A stretch of 64,000 nt of DNA. Source: Effusibacillus pohliae DSM 22757. GTDB taxonomy: Bacteria; Bacillota; Bacilli; Tumebacillales; Effusibacillaceae. The notes beneath the pieces are model-generated. The model was not told the origin of the DNA. It did not search any database and saw only the letters and a program-made list of their open reading frames with translations. The DNA lies in NCBI RefSeq assembly GCF_000376225.1, contig NZ_AQXL01000134.1, forward strand, positions 1-64,000, in the 5' to 3' direction. A program made the position numbers and the translations under genes. Positions 24,270 through 49,906 of this stretch are shown here, one piece after another (position 1 is the first letter of the stretch; every line of letters begins with the position of its first letter).

Positions 24270-24497
24270 ATGGACATCGGACAGGAATATTTTTTGGTGA
24301 AAGCGAAAGAAAACGGGGTTCACGTGATCGGTTTGACCCGCGGTGCCGATACCCGGTTTCATCATACGGAAAAATTGGACAAAGGGGAGATCATGATCGC
24401 CCAGTTTACGGAACATACGTCTGCCATTAAGGTGCGGGGAAAAGCGGTCGTTTGGACCAAGTTCGGGCGAGTCGATACATATTCGGAAGACGACTAA
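24270..24497 (+). CDS. mtrB: TRAP, trp RNA-binding attenuation protein
   Basis: MtrB forms an 11-subunit ring that binds tryptophan and then wraps RNA carrying (G/U)AG repeats, which stops trp transcription. The 75 residues keep the family core, with [18 protein letters not shown] then [22 protein letters not shown]. The RNA-contacting Lys and Arg (KLDK, IKVR) and the Thr residues around the tryptophan pocket are present. The ATG follows a GGGAGG site. mtrA (folE), its usual partner in B. subtilis, is absent. The expected target leader is at 45165-45340 in this window. Confidence 0.97.
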
Positions 24498-38959: not shown

Positions 38960-39286
38960 ATGTTGGACTTTTTGCTTGTCGCAGGCAGTATGTATTTGAT
39001 GTACCGATGGGGGATCCGGCAAATGGTCCGGTCCCAGATTGTGAAAAGCTGGATGTTGGATCGGGTAGCGTATTCGTTATTCATGGCAACCGGCTGCACG
39101 CTGTCGCTCTATTTGAGCGTCCTAGCGCTGTTTCCGCTGATCGCCGACTGGTCGGTACCGGCCAAAAGCCTGATCCCCACCGTGGCCGGCATCTGGCTGG
39201 GTGAGTTGCTCTATGCGCGCAATCTGGCGATGACAATGCGGATGCTGCAGAGAATTCGCCGCAAGGAGGAGCGGGCGAATGAGTAG
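38960..39286 (+). CDS. Small membrane protein upstream of the M42 peptidases
   Basis: The 108-residue protein has about three hydrophobic segments and ends in a basic, Arg/Glu-rich tail. I recognise no family. The ATG at 38960 follows AAGGGAGCGG. A frame back to 38870 has no good start. It overlaps the first M42 gene by eight bases, so the two are co-translated, and it may belong with the peptidase cluster. Confidence 0.55.
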   Translation: MLDFLLVAGSMYLMYRWGIRQMVRSQIVKSWMLDRVAYSLFMATGCTLSLYLSVLALFPLIADWSVPAKSLIPTVAGIWLGELLYARNLAMTMRMLQRIRRKEERANE

Positions 39287-40355
39287 GCTGGCCGATTACA
39301 AGCAGGCTTTGCTGGAACTGATGGAGGTTCCTGGCGTAACCGGCTATGAATCGGAGGTGGCCGGTCGGATCGCGTCCTATTTTTGCACTTATACGGATGA
39401 AATCCGGACAGACAAGCTGGGCAACCTGATCGCCCTGATCAGGGGAGAAGGCGCGGAGCCGCGGCCGCGTATTATGGTAGCCGCGCACATGGATGAGATC
39501 GGGCTGATCGTGACAAAGGTCGAGCCGGGCGGATTCCTGCGCTTCACGCAACTGGGCGGATTGGATCCGCGGACCTTGCTCGGGCAAGAGGTGATCGTGC
39601 ACGGCCGGACGAAATGCCACGGGATTGTCGGATCGAAGCCGCCCCACCTGACGACGGCGGAAGAGCGGGACACGGCGATTCCGCTGCAGGACTTGTATAT
39701 CGATTTGGGCATGCCGGAAGAACGGGTACGGGAGCAGATCCAGATCGGGGATGTGATTACGATCGTCCGCTCCAGCATGGAACTGCAGAACGGGTACATA
39801 GCGGGCAAGGCGTTGGACAATCGAGCGGGTATCGCCGCTTTGCTCGAATGCTTGCAGGAAATGAACCGGCTGTGGATCCAGGCGGATGTTTATGTGGTGG
39901 CCACCGTGCAGGAGGAATTGGGCAACCGTGGCGCCGCTGCTGTAGCAAATGCGATCCGTCCCGATTTGGGAATCGCGGTCGATGTCACCCACGCCGGCAT
40001 GCCCGGCGTTGCGGCTGATTTGGGTATGAAAATGGACGGCGGGGCGGTGATCCATAACGGCCCGAACATTCATCGCGATATCTTCGCCCGGTTTGTGAAG
40101 ACTGCGGATCAGCAGAACATCCCGTATCAGATCCGTTTGTCGCAAGCACCGACCGCGACAGACGGGAACGCGATCCAGATCACGCGGGAAGGAATTCCGA
40201 CCGGGGTGCTCGCGATCCCGCTGCGGTATATGCATACTTCCGTGGAAACGGTCTGTTACCGGGATGTGCAGCGCGTCGGCAAGCTGCTCGCCCATTTTGT
40301 CGCATCGGTCGATCGTTCGTTCGTGGAGGGATTGGCTTGTTACTTAAAAAACTGA
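39279..40355 (+). CDS. M42 family aminopeptidase, copy 1
   Basis: M42 enzymes (TET/glutamyl aminopeptidase/cellulase M group) are cytoplasmic dodecameric metallo-aminopeptidases. The 358 residues keep every expected site: AAHMDEIGL (His ligand), KALDNRAG (bridging Asp), TVQEELGNRG (catalytic Glu and Glu ligand), VDVTHAG (Asp ligand) and RYMHTSVE (last His). The start overlaps the small membrane-protein gene. The next copy begins before its stop, so three paralogues are coupled. Confidence 0.92.
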   Translation: MSRLADYKQALLELMEVPGVTGYESEVAGRIASYFCTYTDEIRTDKLGNLIALIRGEGAEPRPRIMVAAHMDEIGLIVTKVEPGGFLRFTQLGGLDPRTLLGQEVIVHGRTKCHGIVGSKPPHLTTAEERDTAIPLQDLYIDLGMPEERVREQIQIGDVITIVRSSMELQNGYIAGKALDNRAGIAALLECLQEMNRLWIQADVYVVATVQEELGNRGAAAVANAIRPDLGIAVDVTHAGMPGVAADLGMKMDGGAVIHNGPNIHRDIFARFVKTADQQNIPYQIRLSQAPTATDGNAIQITREGIPTGVLAIPLRYMHTSVETVCYRDVQRVGKLLAHFVASVDRSFVEGLACYLKN

Positions 40356-41365
40356 CGGAAGCGATGGGCCCTTCCGGGTTCGAAGATGAGATCCGCCAGG
40401 TGATCTATGAAGAGGTGCGCGATTATGCGGACCGCGTGTATACGGACAGCCTCGGCAGCCTGATTGTCGAGAAAAACGGCTCGCAACCGGGTCCGAAAGT
40501 CCTACTCTGCGCCCACATGGACGAAGTCAGCCTGATGATCGTCCAGATTGAGGAAAACGGACTGCTCAGATTTCGCCCGATCGGCGGCGTCGATTCGCGG
40601 GTACTGCTGGCGAAGCCGGTGCGCATCGGCAAACGGAAAATGTTTGGCGTGATCGGGTCCAAACCGATTCATCTGCAATCTTCGGCGGAACGGGAAAAAC
40701 CGGTCTCGATCGAGCAGATGTTCATCGACATCGGCGCGAAAACGAAAGAAGAAGCTGAAAAATGGGTGCAGCCCGGAGACTGCGCCGTTTTCGCAACGGA
40801 CTATCAGGAAATCGGGCAGCGCTGCGCCAAGTCGAAATCGTTTGACGACCGGGTCGGCTGCGCGGTGCTGGTCGAAACGATCAAAAAATCGTTTGACATC
40901 CCCCTCGTGTTCGCTTTTACCGTGCAGGAAGAAATCGGTCTGCGCGGGGCCGGGCCGGTCGCCTACCGGGTGAATCCGGACATTGCGCTGATCCTGGAGG
41001 GAACCGTTTGCTTCGATGTGATGGGAGCGCCCGGGCACGGTCAGGGAACCGTTATGGGAAAAGGGCCCGCGTTGTCGGTGATCGACTCGTCAACAATTGC
41101 GAACCAATATTTTTTGCAGCACATGCTCCAGGTTGCCGAAGCGGCGGGCATTCCCTACCAGTTTCGGCGTGTCAGCGGGGGCGGCAATGATGCGGGACGG
41201 GTGCACATTGCCCGCGGCGGCATCCTGACGGGCGCGGTGTCGGTGCCCACGCGCTACATCCATGCGCCGGCCCAACTGATCAGCCTCGACGATTACGAAA
41301 ACACGATCCGACTGGTGGAAGCGTTTTTGCGGAGCGTGGAAAAAGGGGGATTGCGTCTCGCATGA
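40337..41365 (+). CDS. M42 family aminopeptidase, copy 2
   Basis: This 342-residue paralogue also has a complete site: CAHMDEVSL, KSFDDRVG, TVQEEIGLRG, LEGTVCFD (Glu as the metal ligand here), GGGNDAG and RYIHAPAQ. The start is a TTG at 40337 preceded by GGAGG, inside the end of copy 1. It overlaps copy 3 by four bases. Confidence 0.92.
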   Translation: MLLKKLTEAMGPSGFEDEIRQVIYEEVRDYADRVYTDSLGSLIVEKNGSQPGPKVLLCAHMDEVSLMIVQIEENGLLRFRPIGGVDSRVLLAKPVRIGKRKMFGVIGSKPIHLQSSAEREKPVSIEQMFIDIGAKTKEEAEKWVQPGDCAVFATDYQEIGQRCAKSKSFDDRVGCAVLVETIKKSFDIPLVFAFTVQEEIGLRGAGPVAYRVNPDIALILEGTVCFDVMGAPGHGQGTVMGKGPALSVIDSSTIANQYFLQHMLQVAEAAGIPYQFRRVSGGGNDAGRVHIARGGILTGAVSVPTRYIHAPAQLISLDDYENTIRLVEAFLRSVEKGGLRLA

Positions 41366-42357
41366 AGCAGTTGATTTTCCAATTGGCTGGCGCAGCAGGT
41401 CCGTCCGGATCGGAAACGGAAGTGCGCGACATCCTGTCGGGGCTGTTGCAACCGCATGTGGACGAACTGAAAGTCGACGTTTTGGGCAACCTGCTGGCGT
41501 GGAAAAAAGGAACCGCCAACAGCGGCAAAACCGTACTGCTGGCAGCGAACATGGATGAACCTGGCGTCATGGCCATCCATTGCGAAAAAAATGGATTCAT
41601 TCGGATTGTACCGGTCGGTTCGTTGAATCCGCTGCATCTGATCGGGGAACGGGTGCGTTTTGCCAATGGAGTACTCGGAGTGATCGGAGCGGCTGCAAAC
41701 ACCTCACTTAAAGACATTACATTCGCCGATTTGTATGTGGATATCGGAGCGGAATCGCAGGCGGAAGCAGCGAAACGGCTGCCGATCGGAACGGCGGGGG
41801 CGATTGACAAGCCAGTGTTTCAGCTGACAGAGAACCGGCTGGCGGGCAAATCGCTGGACAATCGTGTGGGTTGTGCGGTGCTTGTTGAGGTGACGTCTAG
41901 GCTGGGAGCGTATCCGCATGATCTGGCGGTTCTGTTTGCTGCGCAAAAAGAGGTGGGCTCTCGCGGCGTCAAAGCGGCCTCATTCAAGATCAACGCCGAT
42001 TTTGCGTTGACGGTTGGCGCCGCCAAGGCGGGAGACATGCCGAGTGCGGAACGCAGCGTCTTGTCCCTTGGGATAGGACCGGCGATCAAAGTGATGGACC
42101 GCGGCGTCGTCGTCCCGCCTGCCATCAAGCAGCGGCTGGTGGATGCGGCGGAACGGCTGCAAATTCCCTATCAGCTGGAGGTATCGCCGGACGGAAACAG
42201 CGATGCCGGCCAGATTTTGCTGTCCAAAGACGGGGTTCCCACCGGCGGGGTATCGATTCCGGTGCGGTACGGACAGGCTCTTTTGCAGGTGGCCGACCTG
42301 CGGGACATCGAGCTGGCATCCCGTCTGGTGCTGGAAACTTTACAAAACGAACGATGA
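41362..42357 (+). CDS. M42 family paralogue, copy 3, probably catalytically inactive
   Basis: The 331 residues align with M42 peptidases along their length, but key positions have changed. AANMDEPGV has Asn for the first His ligand. AAQKEVGSRG has Lys for the catalytic Glu. ALTVGAA lacks the next acidic ligand. IPVRYGQALL has Gln in place of the last His. KSLDNRVG (Asp) and one Glu remain. The open frame is intact and coupled to copy 2 (ATGA), so it looks selected and not decaying. A structural or regulatory subunit of a mixed M42 complex is a reasonable inference. Confidence 0.85.
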   Translation: MKQLIFQLAGAAGPSGSETEVRDILSGLLQPHVDELKVDVLGNLLAWKKGTANSGKTVLLAANMDEPGVMAIHCEKNGFIRIVPVGSLNPLHLIGERVRFANGVLGVIGAAANTSLKDITFADLYVDIGAESQAEAAKRLPIGTAGAIDKPVFQLTENRLAGKSLDNRVGCAVLVEVTSRLGAYPHDLAVLFAAQKEVGSRGVKAASFKINADFALTVGAAKAGDMPSAERSVLSLGIGPAIKVMDRGVVVPPAIKQRLVDAAERLQIPYQLEVSPDGNSDAGQILLSKDGVPTGGVSIPVRYGQALLQVADLRDIELASRLVLETLQNER

Positions 42358-43649: not shown

Positions 43650-44761
43650 TCCGGGAGAAACGAACGGTTCACGTCGATCTTGGCGACCGCGGATATGACA
43701 TTGTGATCGGAGAGGGATTGCTCGACGAGCTCGGACAACTGGCGCAGCAGGCGGGGATTCCGGCAAGCTCCGCCTGCATGATCGTAACGGATGAAAACGT
43801 TGCGGCGTCCGGCCATTTGCAGCGATCGATCACCGCTTTGCAAACTGCCGGCTACCAGGTGGCGGAGGCGGTCGTTCCCGCGGGGGAAGGCTCCAAAACT
43901 CTCGCCCAGGCAGCGGAGCTGTTTGATCGTGCGTTTGCTGCGGGGCTGGATCGAAAATCGGCCATTTTCGCCCTCGGCGGCGGGGTGGTCGGCGATCTGG
44001 CCGGTTTTGTGGCCGCCACTTATATGCGGGGCATCCCGTTTGTACAAGTGCCAACTACCGTTCTTGCTCATGACAGTTCTGTCGGCGGAAAGGTGGCGGT
44101 CAACCATCCGAAAGGAAAAAACGTGATCGGCGCGTTTCACCAACCGAAACTGGTCGTCTATGACATCGCCACTTTGCGGACGCTGCCGCCGCGGGAAGTT
44201 CGCTCCGGTCTGGCGGAAGTGATCAAACACGGGGTGATCCGGGACGCCGGATTTTTCGAATGGATCGAATCCTCGATCGACAAGGTGAGCTCACTCGATC
44301 CGGAGATTGCGGCGGAAATGCTGGCGCGCTCCTGTTCCGTCAAAGCGGCCGTTGTCGCCCGCGATGAAAAAGAAGCGGATGTGCGGGCGATCCTCAATTT
44401 TGGCCACACGCTGGGCCATGCGATCGAAGCGGCGGCCCGTTACGGCACCTATATGCACGGCGAAGCGATTTCGATCGGCATGGTGTTTGCGGCAGAATTG
44501 TCGCTGCTTTACGGAAAAACGGATCGCGGGACGGTCGAACGGATTCGCACCTTGCTCCTGCGAGCCGGGTTGCCGACCGAACTACCCGCCGATTTGGATC
44601 CGGTTGAGCTGCTCACTTCCATGAAGCAGGACAAAAAAGCGGCCGGCGGCCGCCTCGCCTTCGTGCTGGTAACGCAAATCGGATCGGTTGAGATTTGCCG
44701 AAATGTGGACGAAGAGTCGGTGCTCGCCTTGCTTCGTCGGCTGGGGGGGAACGAACGATGA
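43646..44761 (+). CDS. aroB: 3-dehydroquinate synthase
   Basis: AroB closes the ring of DAHP to 3-dehydroquinate using NAD and a metal. The 371 residues include FALGGGVVGDLAGFVAATYM, QVPTTVLAHDSSVGGKVAVN and LNFGHTLGHAIEAA with metal-binding His residues. Coupled ATGA overlaps join it to aroC before and aroH after. This is the same order as in B. subtilis. Confidence 0.97.
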   Translation: MIREKRTVHVDLGDRGYDIVIGEGLLDELGQLAQQAGIPASSACMIVTDENVAASGHLQRSITALQTAGYQVAEAVVPAGEGSKTLAQAAELFDRAFAAGLDRKSAIFALGGGVVGDLAGFVAATYMRGIPFVQVPTTVLAHDSSVGGKVAVNHPKGKNVIGAFHQPKLVVYDIATLRTLPPREVRSGLAEVIKHGVIRDAGFFEWIESSIDKVSSLDPEIAAEMLARSCSVKAAVVARDEKEADVRAILNFGHTLGHAIEAAARYGTYMHGEAISIGMVFAAELSLLYGKTDRGTVERIRTLLLRAGLPTELPADLDPVELLTSMKQDKKAAGGRLAFVLVTQIGSVEICRNVDEESVLALLRRLGGNER

Positions 44762-45126
44762 TTCGCGGCATTCGCGGCGCCACGACGGTGGAAGAAAACA
44801 CGGAAACGGCGATTTATGAAGCGACGAGAGAACTGTTGTCGGAAATCATATCGGCCAACCGGATCCAGCCGGAAGACATCGCGTCCGTGTTTGCCACGGT
44901 GACGGATGATTTGGATGCGGCGTTTCCGGCGATGGCGATCCGCACGATCCCCGGCTGGGAACTGGTGCCGATGATGTGTTCCAGGGAGATTCCGGTGCCC
45001 GGCAGCGTAAGTAAATGCATCCGGGTGATGATTCACGTCAATACCAACTTGTCGCAAGCGGAAATCAAACATATCTATCTGGGTAGGGCTGCCGGGCTGC
45101 GCCCCGATCTGACCGGGAAAAAGTAG
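44758..45126 (+). CDS. aroH: Chorismate mutase (AroH type)
   Basis: AroH converts chorismate to prephenate for Phe and Tyr. The 122 residues have the trimeric AroH form: IRGIRGATTVEENTE at the start with the active Arg, EDIASVFATVTDDLDAAFPA and IRVMIHVNTNLSQAEIKHIY. It ends the aroC-aroB-aroH unit. A new promoter and the trp leader begin four bases after its stop. Confidence 0.97.
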   Translation: MIRGIRGATTVEENTETAIYEATRELLSEIISANRIQPEDIASVFATVTDDLDAAFPAMAIRTIPGWELVPMMCSREIPVPGSVSKCIRVMIHVNTNLSQAEIKHIYLGRAAGLRPDLTGKK

Positions 45127-45129
45127 TGC

Positions 45130-45158
45130 TTGACGATGCAAGCGCCTCCGGGTACACT
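45130..45158 (+). promoter_or_regulatory. Sigma-A promoter of the trp operon
   Basis: TTGACG (45130-45135), 17 bases and TACACT (45153-45158). The predicted start near 45165 places the whole GAG-rich leader in the transcript. Confidence 0.7.
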
Positions 45159-45164
45159 GTTTGT

Positions 45165-45340
45165 AAGATTCGGAGTGCTTGAGTCAAGATTTGACGAGGG
45201 TTTGAGATGAGCAATTGAACGAGTGGAGCAGAGCCGAGACGAAACAGTAGAGATTTGCGAAGGGTGATGGAGTCTGTCACCTGTTCGTTCCCATTTTCGT
45301 CTTTCACAAGGTCAGAGCTGTGCTCTGGCCTTTTCTTTTA
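45165..45340 (+). promoter_or_regulatory. TRAP-binding trp leader with antiterminator and terminator
   Basis: GAG triplets start at 45173, 45181, 45196, 45204, 45209, 45221, 45226, 45231, 45236, 45250 and 45270, with a TAG at 45248 and an AAG at 45186. Several are exactly five bases apart, the spacing that suits the TRAP ring. Downstream, TCTG-tc-ACCT (45273-45282) can pair with AGGTCAGA (45309-45316) as an antiterminator. The same bases form the 5' arm of the terminator at 45308-45340. Bound TRAP next to the antiterminator would favour termination when tryptophan is plentiful. No leader peptide with Trp codons is seen. Confidence 0.8.
45308..45340 (+). terminator. trp attenuator terminator
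   Basis: AAGGTCAGAGC (45308-45318) pairs with GCTCTGGCCTT (45322-45332) through 11 pairs including one G-U, and TTTCTTTTA follows. It lies 115 bases before trpD. Confidence 0.85.
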
Positions 45341-45454
45341 ACGGCGGGACGGTCAAAAAAGGCTGTTCGGCATCAGCGGCTGCTGCTTCCTGGTGAGCTC
45401 TGACAAGAAGCTTTTTGAGCGAGTTCAGGCCAGTTGAGAGGAGAGCGGAGATTT

Positions 45455-46480
45455 ATGAGAGCAGTGTTGGAGAAGTTGATCGCCGGCTGCGATTTGACGG
45501 ACGCGGAAGCGGAGCAGGTGATGGATCAGATTATGCAGGGCCAGGCGACGCCGGTGCAGATCGCCAGTTTCTTGACGGCGATGCGGGTGAAAGGCGAAAC
45601 GGTCGAGGAGATCACCGGCCTGGTCCGCAGCATGCGCAAGCACGCGACGCCTGTCATCACCGGTGTGGAAGGAATCCTCGACACCTGTGGAACCGGCGGG
45701 AGCGGGATTCCGAAGTTCAACATTTCTACAGCGGCGGCTATTGTGACGGCAGCGGCCGGCGTGCCGATCGCGAAACACGGGAACCGGGCGATGTCGGGCA
45801 AATCTGGCAGCGCGGACGTTTTGCAAGCGCTCGGCGTGAATATCGAGCTGAATCCGTATCAGGCCAGGATTTGTCTGGAACAGGCGGGCATCTGCTTTAT
45901 GTTCGCCCCTCTCTATCACCAGTCGATGAAGCACGCGGTGGGGCCGCGGCGGGAACTGGGGTTCAAGACGGTGTTCAACATCCTCGGCCCGCTGACCAAC
46001 CCGGCTGGCGCCAGGCGGCAGGTGATCGGCACGTTTTCCGGCGGGTTGCTGGAAAAAATGGCGCGGGTGCTGCACGCCTTGGGAGCGGAACATGTGATGG
46101 TCGTGCACGGTTCGGACGGCTTGGATGAAATTACGGTGACAGGACCTACCCAGGTTGCCGAACTGAAAAGCGGAAAGGTCGAATTGTACGAAATCCACCC
46201 GGAACAGTTTGGCTTGCCGGTGTATCCGCTGGAAGCGATCGTCGGCGGTGGCCCGGAAACGAACGCGTTGATCGTCCGCCGTGTGTTGAACGGCGAAACG
46301 GGAGCCACGCGGGACATCGTGGTGCTGAATGCGGCTGCCAGCCTCTATGTGGCGGGCAAAACAGCTTCCTTGCAGGAAGGGGTCCAGTTGGCGCAATCGC
46401 TGATCGATTCCGGCAGGGCCCGGTTGACATTCGAACGGCTGGTGGAGGTTTCCAACCGGTTTGTGAAGGAGTTGGCGTAG
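45455..46480 (+). CDS. trpD: Anthranilate phosphoribosyltransferase
   Basis: TrpD joins anthranilate to phosphoribosyl pyrophosphate. The 341 residues contain DTCGTGGSGIPKFNISTAAA (the phosphoribosyl loop), AKHGNRAMSGKSGSADVLQALG and GPLTNPAGARRQVIG. The ATG follows GAGAGGAGAGCGGAG. It is the first gene after the attenuator, where bacilli have trpE, so anthranilate synthase must be encoded elsewhere. trpC starts immediately after its stop. Confidence 0.97.
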   Translation: MRAVLEKLIAGCDLTDAEAEQVMDQIMQGQATPVQIASFLTAMRVKGETVEEITGLVRSMRKHATPVITGVEGILDTCGTGGSGIPKFNISTAAAIVTAAAGVPIAKHGNRAMSGKSGSADVLQALGVNIELNPYQARICLEQAGICFMFAPLYHQSMKHAVGPRRELGFKTVFNILGPLTNPAGARRQVIGTFSGGLLEKMARVLHALGAEHVMVVHGSDGLDEITVTGPTQVAELKSGKVELYEIHPEQFGLPVYPLEAIVGGGPETNALIVRRVLNGETGATRDIVVLNAAASLYVAGKTASLQEGVQLAQSLIDSGRARLTFERLVEVSNRFVKELA

Positions 46481-47272
46481 ATGATTCTCGACCGGATCGT
46501 CGCTGTCAAGCGGCAAGAGGTGGCCGCGTTACAGCAAACTATCGATCTGCGGCAGGCGGAGCGGGCAATCTCGGAATTGCCGCCCGCTCGCGGCTTTGCG
46601 AACTCGCTTCGCGCCTGCCGGGACGCTGTCGCCCTGATCGCTGAGGTGAAAAAGGCGTCTCCCTCGAAAGGGGTGATTCGCCCGGACTTCCATCCGGTGC
46701 AAATCGCCAGGCAGTATGAGGCGGCGGGAGCCACTGCGATTTCCGTGCTGACCGATGTCCAATTTTTCCAGGGCAGCCCTTCGTATCTGGCAGAGATTCG
46801 CCAATCGGTGTCGCTGCCGCTCTTGCGGAAAGACTTTATCATCGATCAATATCAAATCTATGAGGCGCGCCTGCTGGGAGCCGATGCGATTTTGCTGATC
46901 GCTGCGATTCTAACCACGGAGCAGTTGCGGCGGTTTCGGGAACTGGCGGAGGCATTGGGGATGGACGCGCTGGTCGAAGTGCACGACCGGGCCGAATTGC
47001 AAGCGGCGCTCGCGTCAGGGGCGGGCTTGATCGGTGTCAACAACCGGGATCTGCGGACATTTGACGTCGATTTGCAAACGACCGCCGACGTGGCTGCCGA
47101 TCTGCCCGCGGGCAGCTTCCTCGTTTCGGAAAGCGGAATTTTTACCTATCAGGATGTGCAGTTCGTGAAACAGGCGGGAGCCGGTGCGATCTTGGTCGGC
47201 GAGTCGCTGATGCGGTCGGACGATATCCTGTCCGCGGTCAACCGCTTGTTGGGCAGGAAGATTGAGGTATGA
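46481..47272 (+). CDS. trpC: Indole-3-glycerol phosphate synthase
   Basis: TrpC closes the indole ring. The 263-residue TIM barrel has ALIAEVKKASPSKGVI near residue 50, LLRKDFIIDQYQIYEARLLG and LIGVNNRDLRTFDVDL, with the catalytic Lys and Glu residues in place. It begins directly at the end of trpD and overlaps trpF by four bases. Confidence 0.97.
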   Translation: MILDRIVAVKRQEVAALQQTIDLRQAERAISELPPARGFANSLRACRDAVALIAEVKKASPSKGVIRPDFHPVQIARQYEAAGATAISVLTDVQFFQGSPSYLAEIRQSVSLPLLRKDFIIDQYQIYEARLLGADAILLIAAILTTEQLRRFRELAEALGMDALVEVHDRAELQAALASGAGLIGVNNRDLRTFDVDLQTTADVAADLPAGSFLVSESGIFTYQDVQFVKQAGAGAILVGESLMRSDDILSAVNRLLGRKIEV

Positions 47273-47964
47273 CCCGGATCAAGATATGCGGGCTGCAGAC
47301 GCGGGAAGCTGTGCGGGCGGCGGCAGAGGCCGGAGCCGATTTTATCGGCTTTGTGTTTGCCAGGAGCAAACGGCAAGTGCCACCGGAGCAAGTGGGGGAA
47401 CTGACACACGGGCTAGCGGCTCCCAGACGGATTGGCGTGTTTGTCGACGAATCGCTCGAATCTTTGCTGGCAGCCGGGAAAGCGGCAGCATTGGATGGAT
47501 TCCAGCTGCACGGCGCCGAATCGCCTGCGTTGTGCCGCGAACTGAAGGAACAGACCGGCAAGCTGGTGTGGAAAGCTTGGCCTGTGCGGTTCGATGAAGC
47601 AGATGCACAGATTCGGTACTATCGGGGAGCGGTGGACGCCGTCTTGCTGGACACCTATCATCCGGGGGCGGCGGGGGGCACCGGCAGGACGTTCCCGTGG
47701 CGCGGGATCGCCCGGTTTCGCGAATGGCTGCCGGATGTTCCGATTTTTGTGGCCGGCGGGCTGACGGTTGACAATGTCGGGGAACTCGTTGACGAATACC
47801 GTCCGGATGGAGTCGATGTATCATCCGGCGTGGAATCGAACGGCGCGAAAGATGCGGACAAGATCAAGCGGTTTATCGAAAGAGTGAGGGAGAGAGACGG
47901 ATGCTACCGGATGAAAAAGGGCGTTTCGGAAAATACGGCGGGAAGTTCGTGCCTGAAACGCTGA
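47269..47964 (+). CDS. trpF: Phosphoribosylanthranilate isomerase
   Basis: TrpF isomerises phosphoribosylanthranilate. [13 protein letters not shown] at the start (catalytic Cys), [29 protein letters not shown] and [18 protein letters not shown] are intact. The frame runs to 231 residues, longer than the usual 200-215, because it reads on 64 bases into trpB. The last roughly 20 residues are therefore probably an unconserved extension. Confidence 0.95.
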
Positions 47965-49085
47965 TGAATGCGCTCGACCAACTGGAGCAGGAGTATTGCC
48001 ACTACCGCCAGGATCCGCAGTTCCAGCGGGAGCTGGCGCGGATGCTGACTGAATACTCGGGGCGCCCGACCCCGTTGTATTTTGCGGAACGTTTGACGAA
48101 GCAGCTGGGCGGTGCGAAGATCTATTTGAAACGGGAAGATTTGAACCATACGGGAGCGCACAAGATCAACAACGCGTTAGGGCAGGGACTGCTAGCGAAA
48201 TATACCGGCAAAAAACGGGTGATCGCCGAGACGGGAGCCGGACAGCACGGCGTGGCAACAGCGACGGTCGCCGCCTTGCTGGGATTGGAATGCACCGTCT
48301 TCATGGGTGAAGAAGACATTCGGCGGCAAGAGTTGAACGTGTTTCGCATGAAGCTTCTGGGAGCGGAAGTGGTGCCCGCCACGTCAGGCACGCACACACT
48401 GAAGGACGCGACCAATGAGGCGATCCGCCATTGGGTGGAGCATGTAGAAGATACGTTTTATATCATCGGATCGGTGGTGGGACCGCATCCGTATCCGATG
48501 ATGGTTCGCGATTTTCAACGGATTATCGGCGATGAAACGCGCGAGCAGTTTCTTGCGAAAGAAGGCCGCTTGCCGGACGAGATCGTCGCTTGTGTCGGCG
48601 GCGGTTCGAATGCGATGGGGATTTTTTATCCGTTTCTCGAGGATCCGGTCAAGCTGACGGGTGTCGAAGCGGCTGGTGAAGGGATTGACACGGAGCGGCA
48701 TGCGGCAACAATCAGCAAGGGACGGCCCGGCGTGATCCACGGATCGTTGACCATGTTGCTGCAGGATGAGTACGGGCAGGTGCTGCCCGCCCATTCGATT
48801 TCGGCGGGGCTTGACTATCCGGGAATCGGACCGGAGCACGCCCATCTGGCGGATACAGGCCGCGCACAATACGTGTCGATCACCGACAGGGAGGCGCTCG
48901 CAGGGTTGCAGACGCTCGCCCGCGTCGAGGGGATCATTCCGGCGCTGGAGAGTGCCCATGCGGTCGCGCATGTGCTGAAGGTGGCCCCGAGCCTGCCAAG
49001 CGACTACAGCATCGTGATTTGCTTGTCGGGCCGCGGCGATAAAGACATGCAAAGCGTCATGGGGTATTTGGGGGTGGAACGATGA
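47901..49085 (+). CDS. trpB: Tryptophan synthase beta chain
   Basis: TrpB condenses indole with serine using PLP. The 394 residues contain [13 protein letters not shown], whose Lys carries [23 protein letters not shown] and [15 protein letters not shown], the phosphate loop. The ATG lies 64 bases inside trpF with GAGGGAGAG upstream. It overlaps trpA by four bases, as is usual for the alpha-beta complex. Confidence 0.98.
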
Positions 49086-49906
49086 GCCGGATTCAAGCCG
49101 TTTTTGACAGATTAAAGGAAAAAGGGGAAACCGCCCTGATTCCGTTTGTCACCGTAGGCGATCCCAGTCTCGAGTGGACGGAGCGGATCGTCCGCGATCT
49201 CGAAGCGGCAGGGGCGGATCTGATCGAACTGGGCATCCCGTATTCGGATCCGCTGGCTGACGGACCGGTGATCCAGGCGGCCGCTTTGCGGTCGCTTAAG
49301 CAGGGCACGCGGATGGTCGACGCGTTTGCATTGGTGGCGCGATTGCGCCAATCGGGCGTCGGCGTACCGCTGATTTTGTTTACGTATGTGAATCCGGTGA
49401 TCCAATGGGGAGTGGAACGATTTTTTGCAACGGCGAAAGAGGCGGGGGCGGACGGCGTGATTATTCCGGACCTGCCGTATGAAGAGAGTGGGGAAGCGCG
49501 TCTGGCGGCGGCCAAATACGGTGTCGATCTGATCCCGTTGGTGGCGCCGACCAGCCGGCAGCGAATCGAACGGATTGCGCAATCGGCGAGCGGCTTTGTG
49601 TACTGCGTTTCCTCGCTTGGCGTCACCGGCATGCGGGACCGGTTTTCCGCCGAGCTGCCGGAGTTTGTGTCCAGCGTGCGATCTGCCACAACGCTGCCGG
49701 TGGCAGTCGGATTTGGTGTCAGTACCCCCGAGCAAGCGGCCCACATCAAGCAATTTGCCGATGGGGTGATCGTCGGTTCCGCCATCGTCCGGAAAATCGA
49801 ACGGCTGGCGGAAGCGATCGGCAGCGGCCATCAGGCGGAGATCGACGGAGCGTATGGCGAACTGGTGCAGTTTGCCGCTGCCTTGAAGGAGCCGTTGCGG
49901 GCATGA
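49082..49906 (+). CDS. trpA: Tryptophan synthase alpha chain
   Basis: TrpA splits indole-3-glycerol phosphate to indole, which is channelled to TrpB. The 274 residues have [19 protein letters not shown] with both catalytic acids, DLPYEES and SLGVTGMRD. It is coupled to trpB and, by a further four-base overlap, to tyrA. Confidence 0.97.

Follow-up and report, generated by a model that had tools for sequence, protein, structure and literature searches.

Organization of the trpD leader and its operon

The locus lies in a 64-kb stretch of the Effusibacillus pohliae genome, the whole of which is referred to here as the window. In it, a chorismate mutase gene (aroH) is followed by a leader region and a block of trp genes, and the same window contains the gene of the tryptophan-responsive regulator TRAP. 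The features are the following:

24270–24497, + strand: mtrB, encoding TRAP (PF02081, E 5.7e-38; NCBIfam NF009724 above cut-off; PDB TRAP chains matched)
44758–45126, + strand: aroH, chorismate mutase, the gene upstream of the leader (TIGR01796, 160.7 bits against a cut-off of 82)
45130–45158, + strand: promoter TTGACG-N17-TACACT, by sequence pattern
45173–45252, + strand: ladder 1, ten GAG triplets that may serve TRAP as a binding site in attenuation
45236–45303, + strand: predicted stem, candidate antiterminator, in which the 3' end of the ladder (GAGACGAAA) pairs with TTTCGTCTT around an apical hairpin
45308–45332, + strand: intrinsic terminator AAGGTCAGAGC-TGT-GCTCTGGCCTT, then TTCTTTT (11 bp, six G-C pairs, −16.5 kcal/mol)
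45417–45450, + strand: ladder 2, at the ribosome-binding site of trpD, with five GAG and two CAG triplets
45455–46480, + strand: trpD, anthranilate phosphoribosyltransferase, first gene of the operon (TIGR01245, 432 bits against a cut-off of 199)
46481–47272, 47269–47964, 47901–49085 and 49082–49906, + strand: putative trpC, trpF, trpB and trpA, in this order (open reading frames, named by sequence recognition)

Much of what a first-pass annotation of this DNA had described is borne out. The −35 box begins four bases past the aroH stop at 45126, the 11-bp terminator stands between ladder 1 and the first trp gene, and trpD follows the leader directly, with no trpE in the operon between aroH and trpD. 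The same annotation did not mention the second ladder, over the trpD ribosome-binding site. Elsewhere in the window (39279–42357) there are three adjacent similar open reading frames of 331–358 amino acids, which by appearance resemble M42-type aminopeptidases.

T-box leaders also provide tryptophan-dependent control of trp genes in Firmicutes. A T-box covariance model gave no match in the window or at the trpG and pab operon loci, and T-box control of the trp genes was discarded because no match precedes trpD or trpG.

A trp leader regulated by TRAP is taken to carry about 9–11 (G/U)AG triplets with spacers of 2–3 nt. For scoring the ladders, GAG was given 1.0, TAG 0.7, AAG 0.3 and CAG 0.1, with spacers of 2–3 nt free and all others penalized. 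Ladder 1 obtains 6.0, the top score of the window on both strands, against 3.5 for the best ladder outside the trpD leader, and none of 500 dinucleotide-preserving shuffles reached this value (p=0.002). Its ten GAG triplets start at 45173, 45181, 45196, 45204, 45209, 45221, 45226, 45231, 45236 and 45250. Runs at five-base spacing had been claimed for it, and here the claim stands only in part: the triplets are beyond chance, but the five-base period is restricted to 45204–45209 and 45221–45236, several of the gaps between triplets exceed the ideal 2–3 nt, and the B. subtilis trp leader, used as control, scores 9.8. More regular ladders than this one are present in the trpD leaders of relatives. 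Ladder 2 is the second-best ladder of the window; on its own it is weak in this genome, not going beyond chance in comparison with shuffled sequences (p=0.21), so that ladder 1 is statistically the stronger of the two.

RNA folding and the candidate antiterminator

The first-pass annotation had also proposed an antiterminator sharing bases with the terminator, and this element was not recovered. In the fold of the full leader, the stem of highest stability (45236–45244 with 45294–45303) ends about 5 nt ahead of the terminator and has no bases in common with it. At equilibrium, the terminator is predicted with a probability above 0.9 both with the ladder blocked and with it free, so the change of fold expected upon blocking the GAG region did not appear. 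The B. subtilis control likewise shows no switch when its ladder is blocked, and for this reason we think that equilibrium folding is blind to a switch of this kind.

Truncated transcripts give a different picture. When the transcript is cut before the 3' arm of the terminator, the 5' arm is partly paired to ladder bases in most leaders; in the present one, the paired segments are TTTGAC, from the ladder region, and GTCAGA, from the terminator 5' arm. An attenuation of the B. subtilis type, in which a real antiterminator forms co-transcriptionally and overlaps the terminator, would use such a pairing, and as a kinetic switch it would be invisible to equilibrium folding, as the control indicates. 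Nevertheless, the alternative pairing is no better than that of shuffled sequence in any leader tested or in the B. subtilis control, and the best stem of the full leader falls short of the terminator. Base sharing is not established, then, since the stem ends about five bases too early and shuffles pair equally well; an antiterminator that shares bases with the terminator is possible according to the folding models. We regard this co-transcriptional version, which is a sub-case of the explanation that we prefer, as somewhat unlikely. The description of the leader as a complete TRAP-type switch must be qualified in the same way: promoter, ladder, terminator and trpD are all in place, but the overlap was not confirmed and the irregularity of ladder 1 makes "complete" an overstatement.

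Anthranilate synthase at a second locus

With no trpE in front of trpD, the first-pass annotation had placed anthranilate synthase elsewhere in the genome, which is indeed the case. The search covered 3.36 Mb in 135 contigs (99.85% complete) and returned two proteins with a chorismate-binding domain, one on contig C110 and the other on contig C119. The gene on C110 sits directly after an amidotransferase gene, and the two are taken as trpE and trpG; TrpE models exceed PabB models by over 100 bits for its product, without any equivalog cut-off being passed. On C119, the order cysK, chorismate-binding gene, amidotransferase and aminotransferase-like gene is that of a folate operon, on account of which this pabB-like gene was rejected as the missing trpE and taken as pabB. 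Given that neither protein passes a TrpE or PabB cut-off, both assignments were made from gene context and the TRAP-type leader. The leader of the trpG-trpE pair on C110 (locus L004) comprises:

L004 1665–1706: upstream GAG ladder
between the two ladders of L004: terminator of 12 bp
L004 1763–1804: second ladder, eight GAG triplets, which reaches almost to the trpG start codon

Shortly before trpG-trpE there is a run of tRNA genes (L004 1–1564). The prediction that a second GAG leader would be found before these genes holds, because trpG-trpE stands behind its own ladders and terminator; anthranilate synthase thus appears to be controlled by TRAP as well, and not in a separate way as had been suggested. 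The triplets of the second ladder overlap the trpG ribosome-binding site, as expected of a site at which TRAP would block the ribosome directly; this ladder exceeds chance (p=0.002 against shuffles) and is the most regular of the genome, with seven GAG triplets at exact five-base periods. A strict pattern of four triplets, GAGNNGAGN{2,3}GAGN{2,3}GAG, has 7 matches genome-wide. Five of them belong to the trpG leader and one to that of trpD, and the seventh, on contig C108, was dismissed as lying inside coding sequence.

TRAP in the genome and its relatives

MtrB of E. pohliae shares 42 of 67 aligned residues with its B. subtilis counterpart, and the residues in contact with tryptophan or RNA (T25, K37, Q47, T49, K56 and R58) are conserved. 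Residue 60 is K here and E in B. subtilis, and it is K or R among the readable relatives of the order. Among the relatives that were read (L159–L178), it is K in most and R, Q or N in a few. Of the order's 14 genomes, 12 were found to have mtrB; the other two are fragmented assemblies of 400 or more contigs. A homologue of anti-TRAP was not found in E. pohliae, and among the 15 genomes searched only G006 has one (L158).

Conservation of the leaders in the order and beyond

The order set consists of 14 genomes, E. pohliae and 13 relatives. All 14 have trpD preceded by an aroH-like sequence with no TrpE motif upstream, all 14 carry a ladder and a terminator in front of trpD, and the promoter pattern after aroH recurs in 13. 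The terminator of the trpD leader is conserved as GGTCAGAGC/GCTCTGGCC in two families; across the order these terminators have 5 or 6 G-C pairs, against 4 in the B. subtilis attenuator, and T runs that are mostly longer than that of the latter. Only in E. pohliae itself and G005 does the ladder at the trpD start fall short of significance; in the other 12 genomes its p value is below 0.05. A hairpin ACGGGATGGGT..ACCCAT, located between ladder and terminator, is conserved in the trpD leaders of five genomes (G004, G008, G010, G012 and G013; L100, L095, L097, L096 and L094, respectively), and a related motif occurs also in some trpG leaders.

A separate trpG-trpE with ladder and terminator is found in nine genomes (G000, G001, G002, G005, G006, G009, G011, G012 and G013). 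The count leaves out G003, in which the contig begins just before trpE. Instead of trpGE, the genomes G004, G008 and G010 contain a fused TrpE-TrpG of a different clade, at the following positions:

L148 2288–4594: fused TrpE-TrpG
L149 3941–6250: fused TrpE-TrpG
L150 4505–6810: fused TrpE-TrpG

The fused protein of G004, the one of the three tested against the model, matches TIGR01815 with 1040 bits (cut-off 739). Upstream of the fused gene there is a GAG ladder of about ten triplets in all three genomes. As judged from sequence, the fused enzyme is a non-orthologous replacement of trpGE, with a TRAP-type leader present. A switch hiding the ribosome-binding site of the fused gene was considered and is unsupported, its predicted accessibility being low in both states and changing little with the ladder blocked.

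The other leaders bear on how TRAP would act. In G007, the trpG leader has the ribosome-binding-site ladder alone, with no terminator recognized. Outside the order, in G018 and G041, of one family, a long TrpE is preceded by a ladder, and trpD by a ladder plus terminator. In G033 and G052, of another family, there are ladders upstream of trpG and at the start of trpD; the sole trpD ladder found in these two runs into the trpD start, and a terminator is not evident. It could be argued from these cases that TRAP control is mainly translational, with the ladders at the trpD and trpG ribosome-binding sites doing the work, the terminator as a constitutive limiter and ladder 1 as a loading site or a relic. 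The regularity of the trpG ribosome-binding-site ladder fits with this, as does the fact that a competing antiterminator could not be demonstrated. However, ladder 1 and the terminator are kept in every trpD leader of the order, and in E. pohliae it is ladder 1, not the ladder at the ribosome-binding site, that stands out statistically. We find a mainly translational role quite unlikely.

A more radical objection is that the GAG ladders are purine-rich sequence arising by chance, or sites for another RNA-binding protein. Ribosome-binding sites are purine-rich, and ladder 2 by itself does not differ from shuffles. Against this, the four-GAG pattern is rare genome-wide and located at the trp leaders, the ladders are conserved across the order, and mtrB is found in most of these genomes, which leaves this objection extremely improbable. 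We consider TRAP control of the split trp genes, as predicted from these leaders, to be real and lineage-wide.

Proposed mechanism and comparison with known systems

In our opinion, this region is very probably the TRAP-responsive leader of a trpDCFBA operon inside an aro/trp block, with the trpGE operon under the same control. Built on the leader elements observed here, on how they are conserved and on TRAP being present, the mechanism that we infer would comprise TRAP binding, termination and a translational block, with the free RNA avoiding the strong terminator. When tryptophan is plentiful, Trp-loaded TRAP would bind ladder 1 as the RNA emerges, and transcription would stop at the strong hairpin at 45308–45332. 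On the transcripts that escape, TRAP would occupy the GAG-rich ribosome-binding site of trpD and block translation, a block presumed to be weak in this genome and stronger in relatives. The separate trpG-trpE operon would be governed in the same manner by its ladder, its terminator and the second ladder over the trpG ribosome-binding site, and in the TRAP-free state both operons would be expressed.

The leader resembles that of the B. subtilis trpEDCFBA operon in that (G/U)AG triplets in series come first, then a terminator and then trp genes, in a genome with mtrB (PMC3913778, PMC4027176). In B. subtilis, trpE comes first and there is one TRAP site, the antiterminator (+60 to +111) extends into a weak terminator (+108 to +133), and refolding of the RNA hides the trpE ribosome-binding site (PMC3913778, PMC4027176). 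Here, in contrast, trpD comes first, the terminator is stronger, an overlap between antiterminator and terminator is not evident, and the ribosome-binding site itself is covered by a GAG cluster. For B. subtilis trpG and trpP, papers cited in PMC4347634 describe a direct block of ribosome binding by TRAP, and the GAG ladder over the trpG ribosome-binding site is alike. The B. subtilis trpG belongs to the folate operon, whereas here trpG is together with trpE in a separate operon, and the ribosome-binding-site ladder differs from those of trpG and trpP in following an upstream ladder and a terminator in the same leader. Both kinds of TRAP site, before terminators and on the ribosome-binding sites of trpG and trpP, are already known in B. 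subtilis (PMC7430163, PMC4347634).

As an intrinsic terminator, the attenuator of B. subtilis is reported to be weak, weak terminators are also described for the leaders of several other TRAP species, and TRAP is reported to participate directly in termination (PMC3913778); E60 of B. subtilis TRAP has been linked to an effect on RNA polymerase (review, PMC7430163). We tentatively propose, with somewhat less than even confidence, that two TRAP rings may sit on each trp leader of the order, flanking a strong intrinsic terminator. The first ring would set termination and the second would act on the ribosome-binding site of the first gene, with termination through an ordinary strong hairpin instead of a direct action of TRAP on RNA polymerase at a weak one. 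Termination by a strong hairpin would agree with MtrB having a basic residue at position 60.

Conclusions

TRAP control in its textbook form concerns a single trp operon, with trpE as the first gene. The order studied here splits the tryptophan pathway into two operons, each with its own TRAP-type ladder. In the literature covered, mostly outside subscription journals, we found no description of a trpE-less trp operon behind a TRAP leader, of a separate TRAP-led trpGE operon or split TRAP regulon, or of a leader with TRAP sites in tandem.

With its ladders in tandem, a single leader may provide two layers of control. Moreover, a ladder stands before anthranilate synthase even where the enzyme is an unrelated fused one, which points to a strong selection for TRAP control of this step. 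We think that the stronger terminators of the order may serve as a natural test of whether TRAP works through RNA refolding or through a direct action on RNA polymerase.
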